A DNA stretch of 64,000 nt, from contig NZ_BSTQ01000003.1 of the NCBI RefSeq assembly GCF_030269605.1, positions 186,001-250,000 of the forward strand, read 5' to 3'. Source of the stretch: Lentzea sp. NBRC 105346. Its GTDB lineage: Bacteria; Actinomycetota; Actinomycetes; Mycobacteriales; Pseudonocardiaceae. Shown here piece by piece: positions 18,663 to 22,968 of the stretch (within the stretch, counting starts at the first letter, position 1; each line of letters begins with the position of its first letter). The translations under genes and the position numbers were made by a program. The notes below the pieces were generated by a model. The model searched no databases. It worked only from the letters and a program-made list of their open reading frames with translations, and was not told where the DNA came from.

Positions 18663-18887
18663 ATGTCCGAGTGGCACAAGAGCAGCTACAGCCCGAACGC
18701 CAGCGACTGCGTCGAGGTCAGGTGGCGCAAGAGCAGCTACAGCCCCACCGCCAGCGACTGTGTCGAGGTGGGGCACGGTGTCGGCATTCGGGACAGCAAG
18801 TCTCCCGCCGCCCACCTCGCCCTCGATGCCCCCGCCTGGACCGCGTTCCTGGCCGCCGCGAAGTCCGGCGGGTTCGCCGGCCGATGA
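18663..18887 (+). CDS. DUF397 protein with duplicated core motif
   Basis: A 74-aa small protein with a site GAGGAG just before the ATG at 18663. DUF397 proteins normally hold one W-x-KSSYS-x5-DCVEV motif. Here it appears twice in tandem: WHKSSYSPNASDCVEV (about 4-19) and WRKSSYSPTASDCVEV (about 21-36). The usual VRDSK-type segment (GIRDSKSP) and the C-terminal WTAFLAAAKSGGF follow. It is the partner of the DUF5753 regulator upstream, and its stop overlaps the next start (ATGA). Confidence 0.93.
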   Translation: MSEWHKSSYSPNASDCVEVRWRKSSYSPTASDCVEVGHGVGIRDSKSPAAHLALDAPAWTAFLAAAKSGGFAGR

Positions 18888-19375
18888 GCGAGCGTCGCTG
18901 GCCCGAGCCCATGGCCCACGACGAGTTGCAGCTCCAGTGGGACTTCCTGGATTTCCTCCGCCACACCGCCGTCATGAAGGTCGAAGGTCTGACGCGCGAT
19001 CTGGCCGCCGCCGCACCTGTGCCCACATCCCCGAAGATGACGGTGCTCGGCGTGTTGAAGCACCTCATCGCGGTTGAGCGCTACTGGTTGTGCATCGCGG
19101 GCGGCGGGTCGGATCTTCCCTCGTTGTGGCAGGGTAGTCCGGATCCGTCGTGGAATCTGTCCGAAGAGGACACTCCGTCGAGCCTCATCGCCAAGTATCG
19201 CGACGAGTGGGCGAACGCCAAGGACGCGCTCAGCGGTCGGAAGCCGGATGATCTCTCGGCTAATGGCGACTTCACTGTTCGGTGGATCATGCAGCACGTG
19301 ACTCAGGAGACTGCCCGGCACGTGGGGCACCTGGACTTCCTTCGCGAGTTGGCTGATGGGGAGGTGGGTGAGTAA
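18884..19375 (+). CDS. DinB-family four-helix protein (DUF664 type)
   Basis: A 163-aa protein of the DinB/YfiT-like metalloenzyme fold. The ATG at 18884 overlaps the DUF397 stop by 4 bp. Metal-ligand-type histidines appear in MTVLGVLKHLIAVERYW (about residue 54) and in the C-terminal ETARHVGHLDFLRE (about 142-148), the usual three-His pattern. Relatives include mycothiol- or bacillithiol-dependent transferases, but the substrate is unknown. It is co-transcribed with the DUF5753/DUF397 pair, and an imperfect hairpin follows at 19391-19438. Confidence 0.87.
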   Translation: MSERRWPEPMAHDELQLQWDFLDFLRHTAVMKVEGLTRDLAAAAPVPTSPKMTVLGVLKHLIAVERYWLCIAGGGSDLPSLWQGSPDPSWNLSEEDTPSSLIAKYRDEWANAKDALSGRKPDDLSANGDFTVRWIMQHVTQETARHVGHLDFLRELADGEVGE

Positions 19376-19376
19376 C

Positions 19377-19409
19377 GCGGCCTGCGGCCGCGACACGAGG
19401 CATGCCTCC
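19377..19409 (+). repeat. 33-bp inverted repeat, left copy, flanking the DUF222-HNH gene
   Basis: An exact reverse complement of 20841-20873. It contains the palindromes GCGGCCTGCGGCCGC and GAGGCATGCCTC. The last 16 bases also pair with an imperfect copy at about 19423-19438 (3 mismatches), so it may also end transcription of the DinB gene. Confidence 0.85.
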
Positions 19410-19550
19410 TTCGTCGGCGTGCCTCGTACCGAGAAAAGATGGCTGGCTTTGGGCGTGGGTCCCGATCCGTTGGCTGGGTTGCGTTCGTTCGGTGCGGTTG
19501 CGGGCGTGGCTGGGATGAGGTGGCTGGAGTTGGCACCGTTTTGCTATGCG

Positions 19551-20745
19551 TCAGCTCACCATGTGCAGGGGGTTACGTCTCGGCTGACGTAGCGGGTCGA
19601 GGAACGCCGGTGGGATGAAGTACGGGATTCCATTGCGGAGCTTCACTTCCCACTCGCTGTGATGGATCAGGTCGTGATGTCGGCGGCACAGCAGCACGCC
19701 GTTGTGCAGGCTCGTCCTGCCGCCATCGGCCCAGTGTGTGACGTGGTGGCCTTCACAGTGCCGTGGTGGCCGGTTGCAGCCCGGGGAACGCGCAGCCCCG
19801 GTCCCGTGCGACGAGGGCTCGGCGTAAGCCGCTGTTGAACAGCCGCGCTTTGCGGCCGACGTTGAGCGGCTGCGAGCGGCTGCCCAAGACGATCGGGATG
19901 ACGCCTGCCTCGCAGGCCAGCTTGCGCAGCTGCTTGACCGGGATGCGTTCCTGGTTGTCCAGCACCGCGTGACCCGTCTTCGCGGCCAGGTCGTCGTAGG
20001 ACACCGTCATGGCCAGGGTGACGGTCTCGCCGCCGTGCTCGGGCAGCACGTCCGCGCGCAGCACCAGGTCGACCAGCTCGGCGAACGCGTCACCCTGCCG
20101 CTCGGCGTAGGTACGAGTGTCGGGGCCCTCGAGGTCGTCGGCGGGCTGGGGCTGTGCCTGCGGATCCGAGCCTTCCGGGCGGGCGCGGCGCGGCTTGGCC
20201 AGCGGGTCCAGCATCGCCTCCAGCTTGGCGCCGGTCTCCGGCCCCAAATCGAAGTTGCCCCGGTACCGGCCACGTTCCCACCGCGCCACCAGCTTGTCGC
20301 TGGGCGGCGCCGGATCCTTCTCGTCGGGTTCGGGGTCGTTCTGGAACAGGTGGTAGACCACCCTGCGGCCGAAGTCACGGATCGCGCCCGGCTCGAACGT
20401 CCGGCCGAACTCCGCCAGCTGCCGCTCGACGAACGCCGTCTTGTCCGCGGTGGCATCGGCGGGCACGTTCTTCATCGCCCTGGCGATCGCGTCGACATGC
20501 TCCTCGGTCAGCTCGCCCTCAGCCATGGCCTCGGCGGTGGCCGGGCGTTCGGGCTCGATCGACGCGCCAGTAGGACCCAGCTGATGCATCAGCAGCCGCG
20601 CCCGGCGTCGCTTCGCCTTCGACACACTCGGATCCCAATGCACCCGATCCTTCAACACCCCGACCAGGTCCTTGTAGCCCAGCTCGGCGGCCAGGCCACG
20701 CCGGTCCATCTCGGCAATCCAGCGCAGCAGCCGCTCATGACGCAC
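19551..20745 (-). pseudogene. DUF222/HNH endonuclease gene (REP13E12-like), frameshifted
   Basis: The N-terminal DUF222 part reads from a GTG at 20745 to a stop at 19753 (330 codons, ending CAFPGLQPATTAL). The missing HNH end lies in the next frame: FPGCNRPPRHCEGHHVTHWA, then DGGRTSLHNGVLLCRRHHDL, running to a stop at 19551. A 1-nt insertion in the CCCGGGG run at 19780-19786 explains the break; removing one base restores PGCNRPPRHCEGHH. The beginning is also short, with an in-frame TAG three codons before the GTG. The intact family resembles the REP13E12 genes of mycobacteria. A sequencing error at the homopolymer is the main alternative. Confidence 0.85.
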
Positions 20746-20840
20746 ACGGATCTAACGGCAAGATCACGACCGGATAACGCGTTTACCTGCGAAAACGTGT
20801 GACACGATCGGGTGAATCAAAGATCAAGCTCAAGCCACCC

Positions 20841-20873
20841 GGAGGCATGCCTCGTGTCGCGGCCGCAGGCCGC
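20841..20873 (-). repeat. 33-bp inverted repeat, right copy
   Basis: An exact reverse complement of 19377-19409 with no mismatch. The two copies enclose 1497 bp containing only the DUF222-HNH gene. No target-site duplication is evident outside them (AGTAAC on the left, ACCCAA on the right). Confidence 0.85.
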
Positions 20874-20965
20874 ACCCAAAGCCCAACCGGAGCATTACCG
20901 AAGAGTATTTCCGAAACCCTGGATAGAGTGGATTGTTTGCGCTCCGCCAGGCCAAGGAGTAGTCA

Positions 20966-22045
20966 ATGTACGATGGAATCGCGCAAAAGATCGTAGCCAT
21001 CCTGGAGGAAGTCAAGCCGCCAAAGGAGTTGATTTCACAGGTAGGCCGAGTCAACGACTTCCCGCGCCTCCTCCGCGCGCTACACGAGGTGGAAAGGTTC
21101 ATCGCGGACAGCATCACGCTGGAATTAGTCAAGTACGACACCGAGACGGCCATCGCGAGACAAACGGACTACAGTCCGCTGATCTTCAAGCACGCCGACA
21201 TCGCGTTCCGCGTGTACGAGACGGTCGTCTCCACTCCAGGAGCCGTGCCAGAGGGCAGCGGCGATCTCGCCAAGGCGCTGTCGAGCTTCCAGATCGGCCG
21301 CACGATCTCAACCGACGAGACCCTCAAGGCCATGGAACTGGAGTTTCTCGGTGCCGTGCGGGCGTTCCTCGCGCTCTCCCTGTGGGTCTCCGCGGAGGGC
21401 AAGCCCGGTCAGCGGCTCATCGCGTCACTGGCCCAGACCGGCAAGACGATCACCATCGGGATCGCCTACAAGTCCAAGCCGAGCAGCCTGATGGCCGACC
21501 CGAACGCACGCGGCGTGCACGCGACGGCGGCTCCGGACGCGGCTGCGATGACCGAGCAGGAAACGGAAGCGCAGGCACGCGACCGCCTGTCGAAAATCGT
21601 TAGAGGCCCCGGCGGGGAAAGCGTAATCACCGCACCCGTTTATGCTGGAACGTTGGAGGACCCGACGAAGGCATTCAAGAACACGACGGTACGCGACGCT
21701 TTGTGGAGCATTCTTCGCGGATCGGTTTCGTTCAACCAGAAGGGCGACCCGTACTTCTCCCCGAGCCGGGTCGAGCTGATGCACGAACTGATCCACGTCG
21801 ACCACAACGCGCGCGGCGAGAACCGGGCGGACCTACCGTTGAACAAGCAGGCCCGTGACGTGTGGAAGGACGCCGAGGAGTTCTGGACCATCGAGGCGGG
21901 CGACCTGACGGAGAGCGACTTCGCCCGTGACCTCGTCCTGCCGAGGCGGCGCTCGCACTCCGGGCTGCGGCTGCACGCGTTCGACCCGAAGTCCGCGGAC
22001 GCGCAGAAGTCGCTCAAGAAGCACTTCGAGTACGAGCCCGACTAG
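20966..22045 (+). CDS. Putative zinc metallopeptidase effector-like protein (HELIH motif)
   Basis: A 359-aa protein without signal peptide or membrane segment. The first 200 residues are helical and unrecognised. The C-terminal part carries HELIHVDHNARG (His273, Glu274, His277) followed about 30 residues later by DAEEFWTIEAGD and TESDFARDL. This resembles the HExxH...E layout of NleD/M91-type and polymorphic-toxin metallopeptidases. Catalysis is inferred, and the third ligand (Glu304/305 or 316) is a guess. It has a TTA codon (21125) and a lower-GC 5' end than its neighbours, suggesting transfer. It sits next to the inverted-repeat cassette and converges with the LysR gene, overlapping it by 4 bp. 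Confidence 0.75.
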   Translation: MYDGIAQKIVAILEEVKPPKELISQVGRVNDFPRLLRALHEVERFIADSITLELVKYDTETAIARQTDYSPLIFKHADIAFRVYETVVSTPGAVPEGSGDLAKALSSFQIGRTISTDETLKAMELEFLGAVRAFLALSLWVSAEGKPGQRLIASLAQTGKTITIGIAYKSKPSSLMADPNARGVHATAAPDAAAMTEQETEAQARDRLSKIVRGPGGESVITAPVYAGTLEDPTKAFKNTTVRDALWSILRGSVSFNQKGDPYFSPSRVELMHELIHVDHNARGENRADLPLNKQARDVWKDAEEFWTIEAGDLTESDFARDLVLPRRRSHSGLRLHAFDPKSADAQKSLKKHFEYEPD

Positions 22046-22968
22046 GACTGGGCCGTCGGGTGGATGAACTCACCACCCGCTCGAGCACCGGCCTCACGCA
22101 ACGCCGACAGGGCGTCGCGTAGCAGGGGGTTGGTGTTGGCGGACCGGTGCACCGCGGACACGTGGCGCCGCAAAGGCTTCTGCCGCAACGGCATCGCGTG
22201 CACACCGGGCGACGGCTTGTACCCCAGAGCCGGCACCAGCGCCACACCAACCCCGGCGGACACCAGCGACTGCACGACGTCGTAGTCGTTGCTGCGGAAC
22301 GCGATTCGCGGCGCGAACCCCGAAGCGGCGCACAGTCGCACAAGGCAGGTCGCACCGGAAGTCCCGTCACGGGAAGCGATCCAGCGTTCGCCGGCCAGGT
22401 CGTCCAACCGCACCGCAGGCCGGGCGGCGGGATGCCCGGCGGGCACCAGAACCAACAGGGACTCGTCGAGCAACGGGAGAACGGTCAGCTCCTCCGGCCA
22501 CGTCACCGGCACGAGGTCGTACGAGTAGACGAGCGCCAAGTCGAGCTCGCCGGACAACACCAGCGGCAGCACGTCGTCGGGTTCGGCCTCGTCGAGCCGG
22601 ATCTCGGCGTCCGGCAGCTCGGCCGAGAGCCGGGCCACCGCGAACGGCACGACGCGGGCCGAGGCGGTGGGGAACGTGCCGAGGCGCAGGCGCCCGCGCA
22701 GCCCCTGGACCATCGCGCGGATCTCGTGCTCGAAGCCGTCCCACGCGGCCAGCAGCTCGCCGCCACGGTCCGCGATGAGCAACGCCGCCGAGGCGGGACG
22801 GATGCTGTGCGCCTCGCGTTCGAACAGGGTCACGCCGACCGCGCGTTCGAAGGCGCTGATCTGCTGCGATACGGCCGAGGACGTGTAGCCGAGACGGCGC
22901 GCGGCCTCGGCGAACGAGCCGGTGCGCACCACCTCGACGAGCGTGCGCAGGTGGACCGGATTCAGCAC
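22042..22968 (-). CDS. LysR-family transcriptional regulator
   Basis: A 308-aa LysR regulator with a GTG start at 22968. The N-terminal winged helix (about 1-60; TGSFAEAARRLGYTSSAVSQQISAFERAVG split over two motifs) and the effector domain (about 90-295) are complete. It is divergent from the catabolic operon starting at 23046, with 77 bp between them, the usual place for a LysR operator. It is therefore the likely specific regulator of that operon, with a substrate or intermediate as co-inducer (inferred). Confidence 0.92.
   Translation of the reverse strand: MLNPVHLRTLVEVVRTGSFAEAARRLGYTSSAVSQQISAFERAVGVTLFEREAHSIRPASAALLIADRGGELLAAWDGFEHEIRAMVQGLRGRLRLGTFPTASARVVPFAVARLSAELPDAEIRLDEAEPDDVLPLVLSGELDLALVYSYDLVPVTWPEELTVLPLLDESLLVLVPAGHPAARPAVRLDDLAGERWIASRDGTSGATCLVRLCAASGFAPRIAFRSNDYDVVQSLVSAGVGVALVPALGYKPSPGVHAMPLRQKPLRRHVSAVHRSANTNPLLRDALSALREAGARAGGEFIHPTAQS

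Follow-up and report, generated by a model that had tools for sequence, protein, structure and literature searches.

Does a DUF222-HNH gene enclosed by two perfect inverted repeats belong to a mobile element, and might its own product mobilise it? The question is raised by one locus in the window, the whole analysed stretch of 64,000 nucleotides from Lentzea sp. NBRC 105346. One mycobacterial copy of the related repeat REP13E12 is known as a prophage attachment site. Actinobacteria commonly encode DUF222-HNH (13E12) proteins. A 2026 preprint describes the mycobacterial REP13E12 repeats as gene-conversion hot spots still without a defined function (PMC13061034). REP13E12 also appears among the repeats listed by DIVE (PMC10589994). 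A literature search, provisional and covering mainly open-licence papers, found none joining DUF222 or 13E12 to terminal inverted repeats. From the analysis below, we consider it highly probable that the locus represents a mobile, hairpin-ended element with a single gene.

The window copy and its arms

The perfect 33-nt inverted repeat originally reported around a DUF222-HNH gene is confirmed. Positions 19377-19409 and 20841-20873 match as reverse complements at all 33 nt and lie 1,431 nt apart. Among perfect inverted repeats whose arms are separated by 100-3000 nt, the next-longest of the window measures 16 nt, and the longest found in 20 windows resampled by a first-order Markov model reached 17 nt. 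The locus comprises the following features.

19376..19392, plus strand: small hairpin of the left arm with a 7-bp stem and a 3-nt loop (predicted from the DNA fold of 19372-19436, z = -5.0; counterpart kept in other arms)
19377..19409, plus strand: left 33-nt inverted repeat as originally reported (exact reverse-complement match)
19395..19427, plus strand: larger hairpin of the left arm with a 12-bp stem and a 9-nt loop, then the conserved ACCGA (fold and arm alignment)
19428..19540, plus strand: inward part of the left arm (GGTCCCGATCC and beyond), alignable to other elements (arm comparison)
19554..20757, minus strand: broken DUF222-HNH gene with 82-90% protein identity to the intact copy L073 (three match pieces)
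19554..19793, minus strand: HNH part in a different frame (protein matching)
19753..20745, minus strand: open frame with the DUF222 domain, GTG start at 20745 (open reading frame and Pfam)
20841..20873, minus strand: right arm, small hairpin intact and larger hairpin half present (arm comparison)

The arms do enclose a single DUF222-HNH gene on the minus strand, as had been proposed, but this gene is broken: protein matching takes three pieces with stops or a frame change, the HNH part lies out of the DUF222 frame, and Pfam matched DUF222 but not HNH on the open frame of the window. In the intact copy L073, both domains score above the cut-off (DUF222 132.5 bits, HNH 24.0 bits), which confirms the REP13E12-like order of DUF222 followed by HNH. 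They are the sole Pfam domains of the intact gene; neither a known transposase domain (DDE, HUH, serine, tyrosine) nor RAYT was matched, and our own gene caller placed no second gene between the arms of the elements. The HNH part alone is weakly IscB-like (E = 0.003), a search against solved structures returned weak IscB matches only (best E = 0.28), and an AlphaFold model for a relative from Rhodococcus, with a mean pLDDT of 54.1, was set aside.

Of the two palindromes previously pointed out in each arm, GCGGCCTGCGGCCGC is a real hairpin. GAGGCATGCCTC reads as a palindrome, but folding predicts for the left arm a 12-bp hairpin spanning 19395-19427 instead. The right arm is without the second half of the larger hairpin. 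Nor do the 33 nucleotides represent the entire arm, since other copies in the genome carry inverted repeats of 117-207 nt; the 33-nt repeat is a decayed remnant of longer arms, and the window copy is very probably a decayed member of a family of IS-like mobile elements with a single gene. Its arm is a shorter version of the common arm plan (larger hairpin of 12 bp; fold z = -5.0). A 25-nt piece of the left repeat recurs at one further genomic place only, in an arm of another element at C9:110863, and one copy of this short arm type forms the left arm of another element with a long-type right arm. An Rfam search of window positions 19000-21500 gave no match at E values up to 1.

Two observations concern the neighbourhood of the element. 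The gene beside it (20966-22045, 359 aa) has no Pfam match at an E value of 0.01 and contains a HELIHVDH stretch reminiscent of metallopeptidases. At 18671-18769, a near-perfect direct repeat of 48 nt (92%) lies near the start of a DUF397 gene.

Copies and arm architecture in the source genome

The source genome (G000; 9.39 Mb in 67 contigs), of which 22 stretches were compared, contains 17 DUF222 matches, in agreement with the expected multicopy cassette. They fall into two protein classes of about 408 and 379 aa, mutually about 30% identical, and both classes carry the same arm type. Of the 14 copies for which both flanks are available, 12 are bracketed by inverted repeats that sum to 117-207 nt and so pass a threshold of at least 40 nt, which is reached by 2 of 104 identically laid-out control stretches at a distance from the elements. 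Two copies fall below it, that of the window with 33 nt and L077 with 23 nt. These counts, like those for relatives given below, apply to copies other than gene-less loci and those cut by contig ends (L070, L084, L085, L153, L185 and L260). Because most other copies keep an intact gene, the family is not simply a non-autonomous cassette as had been suggested.

Sequence comparison indicates that the element consists of two inward-facing arms around one DUF222-HNH gene, each arm with a small hairpin, a spacer of 1-2 nt, a larger hairpin and a conserved inward sequence. In detail, the arm order is the small hairpin (GCGGC-TGC-GCCGC or a longer form), AC, the larger hairpin, ACCGA and the inward sequence, and sequence conservation reaches far past the hairpins. 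With the arms of relatives included, three arm sequence families are predicted to fold into hairpins. We analysed the stems in those 26 of 33 arms (21 distinct) that are exactly 92 nt long, leaving aside short, 91-nt, 94-nt and broken arms. Across the 21 distinct arms, 708 of 735 stem cells are Watson-Crick, the 27 others being mismatches confined to four adjacent pairs, and 5 of 35 pairs show at least two Watson-Crick types. Since hairpin-templated repair can also yield matched changes, this pattern indicates that the palindrome is maintained but does not by itself prove a function. In one arm (L072, 5887-5978), the large hairpin has its loop-proximal part in the opposite orientation to that of other arms (GGCGCCCTAGCGCC in place of GGCGCTAGGGCGCC), as would result from a flip of its tip.

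The common arm pattern, at up to three mismatches, occurs at 27 places in the source genome. Twenty-three lie beside a DUF222 gene or fragment, two are no more than about 300 nt from a contig end, and two form one gene-less pair; none is solitary. The possibility that the arm occurs away from DUF222 genes was thus checked without confirmation here, and the tie between arms and DUF222 genes holds in the source genome but is partly contradicted by other species, where solitary arms occur (see below). A further arm of the short type, at C4:241812 (L090), has no DUF222 gene. The gene-less element (L086, 6306-6693) consists of two whole arms back to back over about 380 nt, with divergent genes on either side.

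As judged by our own codon-usage gene caller, which is non-standard, a gene ends within 30 nt of the element and is aimed at it at 10 of 15 sites in the source genome. Six of the 15 sites are convergent, four divergent and five tandem, whereas 20 of 137 neighbouring gene pairs are convergent. The elements tend towards gene 3' ends.

Occupied and element-free sites in relatives

Among 24 genomes of the genus, the source genome included, the number of DUF222 matches per genome ranges from 0 to 23; 60 stretches from relatives (40 + 20) were tested for paired arms. In the amplified 408-aa sets (G001, G003, G009, G015, G020 and one G006 copy), inverted repeats of at least 40 nt are present at 29 of the 30 copies with two flanks. 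Twelve other 408-aa copies are without paired arms (G005, G006 (two), G008, G010, G011, G014 (two), G018, G021, G022 and G023), of which both G014 copies retain one arm each, on one side. The 379-aa class, for which Pfam did not report HNH, has paired arms at all five copies in G006, G009 and G015 and at none of ten in G001, G003 and G014, where it is likewise multicopy. Four 379-aa pairs occupy orthologous places in G003 and G014, so these armless genes are multicopy but stationary.

The 408-aa arms of relatives are unrelated in sequence to those of the source genome, yet they follow the same plan, in which a short spacer separates a small hairpin from a larger one. In the 379-aa class, the arms of G009 and its relatives have the loop TCCTTCGTC in common with the window arm. 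Predicted folds of L263 and the single arm L212 gave two separate hairpins (z of -4.0 and -7.7), and for L169, which is cut within the small hairpin, only the large structure emerges as a unit (z = -7.0). Outside the genus, paired hairpin arms were found at none of 27 loci with exact seeds, in a sample that did not extend to the M. tuberculosis copies, and at none of 19 loci by BLAST (17 of the 27 and two plasmid loci). We rejected spread of close relatives by plasmids or phages: the intact protein matched 6 records out of 72,556 for plasmids and a single one out of 50,697 for phages, always below 60% identity.

A mycothiol-S-transferase/DinB-type gene has its stop codon 2 nt before the start of the window arm. 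In 16 of 19 relatives it shares a piece with the LysR gene (window 22042-22968); in the other three the gene is missing from the piece. The gaps between the two genes measure 26-48 nt in six relatives, 718-775 nt in eight, 224 nt in one and 1,321 nt in one. In the survey of 24 genomes, none of the relatives' DUF222 positions falls at the window site. The gene at 20966-22045 also lies in the gap of the source genome, and the window site therefore differs by more than the element.

The original prediction had been staked on empty sites in related genomes, and element-free sites are indeed present there. At the site of L072, occupied in the source genome, the flanks are 83% and 80% identical to those of L223 in G004, where 47 nt separate the matching flanks, between two convergent stop codons. 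The L175 site is occupied in G003 and G001 and not in four relatives: G014 has 232 nt of other DNA, and G009, G020 and G021 have about 46-55 nt and are also missing a further stretch on the left. The 232 nt in G014 (L284) hold different palindromes (GATGAAGGGACCCTTCATC), perhaps of another repeat family. At the L174 site, the flanks abut in G014, and the extra DNA of G003 exceeds the size of the element. The proposed comparison of occupied and empty sites was carried out; none of the element-free sites examined has clean junctions at the arm ends, and the exact ends could not be read at nucleotide resolution. A target-site duplication of at least 4 nt was found at none of 12 elements in the source genome, and we rejected it as an element feature for want of support; 26 elements of relatives show a weak, ambiguous excess of 2-nt duplications. 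Taken across the genus, the sequences point to an element that was amplified in some species and is missing at the same sites in others.

The arm motif of the relatives is present in 22 of 24 genomes, most with few DUF222 genes. G017 has no DUF222 gene and 25 single-arm motif matches, of which six were viewed (L229, L233, L237, L240, L243 and L246). Comparison of 20 solo-arm candidates gave a common unit of mostly 250-400 nt, which is not coding-sized. Three orthologous sites carry the full element in some species and a single arm in others (L176/L181 versus L212/L232, L155/L160 versus L209, and L154/L158 versus L245). Such single-arm sites could be remnants, homing targets or arms mobilised by another agent.

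A tree of 48 proteins, from which L184 (214 aa), L153, L176, L183 and L185 were omitted, has one clade each for nine copies of the source genome, six of G015, seven of G003 and six of G001; the G009 copies do not form one clade. Gene identity at five sites common to G009 and G015 is 79-83%, compared with 87-94% for the flanks in four of the pairs, the fifth having pieces of 86% and 76% plus one of 93%. G015's own copies have a mean identity of 95.5%. The clades by genome together with the divergence at the same sites argue that copies replace or convert one another, or repeatedly insert at the same sites. The amplified copies have open genes that evolve under purifying selection: the median dN/dS within sets is 0.05-0.32, and none of the 38 copies selected for this analysis contains an in-frame stop. 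Broken copies (L083, L091), fragments, cut copies and L163, L176, L182, L183 and L184 were left out of the selection. The HNH residues were inspected by eye in one copy per set.

A possible mobilising enzyme and known systems

We lean towards the DUF222-HNH protein as the nuclease that mobilises the element, because it is encoded by the sole gene inside, this gene is under selection, and paired arms accompany amplification. The protein would recognise the double-hairpin ends and cut, or nick, through its HNH domain at these ends or at the target, upon which the unit could be copied or moved to new intergenic sites. Later recombination or gene conversion between copies may then homogenise the gene and the arms within a genome. 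Transposition-like copying is favoured by new sites that hold no arm, and recombination or homing is favoured in addition by single-arm sites and concerted evolution; the two processes are compatible with each other. Against the mobilising role stand G017, the use of the same arms by both protein classes and the multicopy 379-aa genes that have no arms. In particular, solitary arms in genomes without paired-arm elements, such as the 25 in G017, suggest that another enzyme may mobilise arms. More tentatively, the protein could be an HNH-only transposase recognising the double hairpin on folded or extruded DNA, in which case the widespread 13E12 proteins would be its relatives, many of them now immobile.

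A homing process, with the HNH enzyme cleaving a solitary arm already in place and recombination copying the gene in, would make the arms old fixed sites and not transposon ends. It would account for the full element and the single arm seen between species at three orthologous sites and for the same-site genes of G009 and G015 being more diverged (79-83%) than most of their flanks (87-94%) while the G015 copies average 95.5%; it would also agree with the mycobacterial REP13E12 loci described as gene-conversion hot spots in the preprint (PMC13061034). However, the relatives' sites at L072, L174 and L175 are armless, a homing gene should split one target repeat and yet each element has two whole arms, and a single arm could equally be a deletion remnant. 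We therefore regard this account as rather unlikely, and of the mobile or homing cassette originally envisaged, the mobile cassette with palindromic inverted-repeat ends stands, but a pure homing cassette does not follow from the data, because several element-free sites carry no arm.

Somewhat less probable still, the arms might be a REP- or MITE-like repeat mobilised by another enzyme, with the DUF222-HNH gene a passenger or later parasite. The hairpin motif in 22 of 24 genomes mostly with few DUF222 genes, the 25 arms against no gene in G017, the solitary repeats of about 400 nt and the use of one arm type by two distant DUF222 classes in the source genome would all fit. Yet the common arms of the source genome lie at DUF222 genes, at contig ends or in the one gene-less pair and never alone, the elements contain no other called gene, and purifying selection on the genes would be unexpected for dead passengers. 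That the arms are ordinary bidirectional terminators flanking a resident gene is very improbable, for all the genes ending within 30 nt and aimed at the element (10 of 15 sites) and the convergent sites (6 of 15 versus 20 of 137 neighbouring pairs), because conservation extends well past the hairpins, 4 of 15 sites are divergent, a gene-less pair exists, the arms are paired and face inward, Rfam was negative and relatives have sites without the element; a simple terminator repeat was likewise rejected, given that the common-type arm is never solitary in the source genome and is conserved beyond its hairpins.

The preferred reading, a mobile element with the DUF222-HNH protein as the candidate mobiliser, turns a widespread protein family into a testable proposal: as the sole gene of elements with structured ends and variable presence, DUF222-HNH would encode a mobility enzyme. 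Among the enzymes known to catalyse transposition are those of the DDE, HUH, serine and tyrosine types. If HNH alone mobilises hairpin-ended DNA, a further catalytic type would be added to these four, and the concerted evolution of 13E12-type repeats would also be explained.

The family resembles REP13E12 in its DUF222 and HNH protein family, its multiple copies in some genomes and its concerted evolution, but differs in the long terminal inverted repeats of two hairpins, which were seen at 0 of 27 and 0 of 19 loci outside the genus, in samples without M. tuberculosis. With HNH homing endonuclease genes, it shares the HNH nuclease, the spread among sites and concerted evolution, whereas whole inverted arms stand on both sides here and several element-free sites are armless. 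Compared with insertion sequences, most copies have terminal inverted repeats and both occupied and element-free sites were found, but neither a target-site duplication nor a known transposase (DDE, HUH, serine or tyrosine) was. Elements of the IS200/IS605 family likewise have hairpin ends, no evident target-site duplication and a small size; the present elements differ from them in their long inverted terminal repeats and in having no HUH or IscB/TnpB gene. In REPIN-RAYT systems, the enzyme is an HUH tyrosine transposase and not DUF222-HNH, while in the present family amplification extends to the gene and the source genome has few gene-less pairs. Both nevertheless combine inverted pairs of hairpin arms, one bracketed enzyme gene and intergenic placement; of gene-less two-armed derivatives, as found in REPIN-RAYT systems, the source genome has one pair (L086) besides the gene-less arm at L090, and relatives have single arms.
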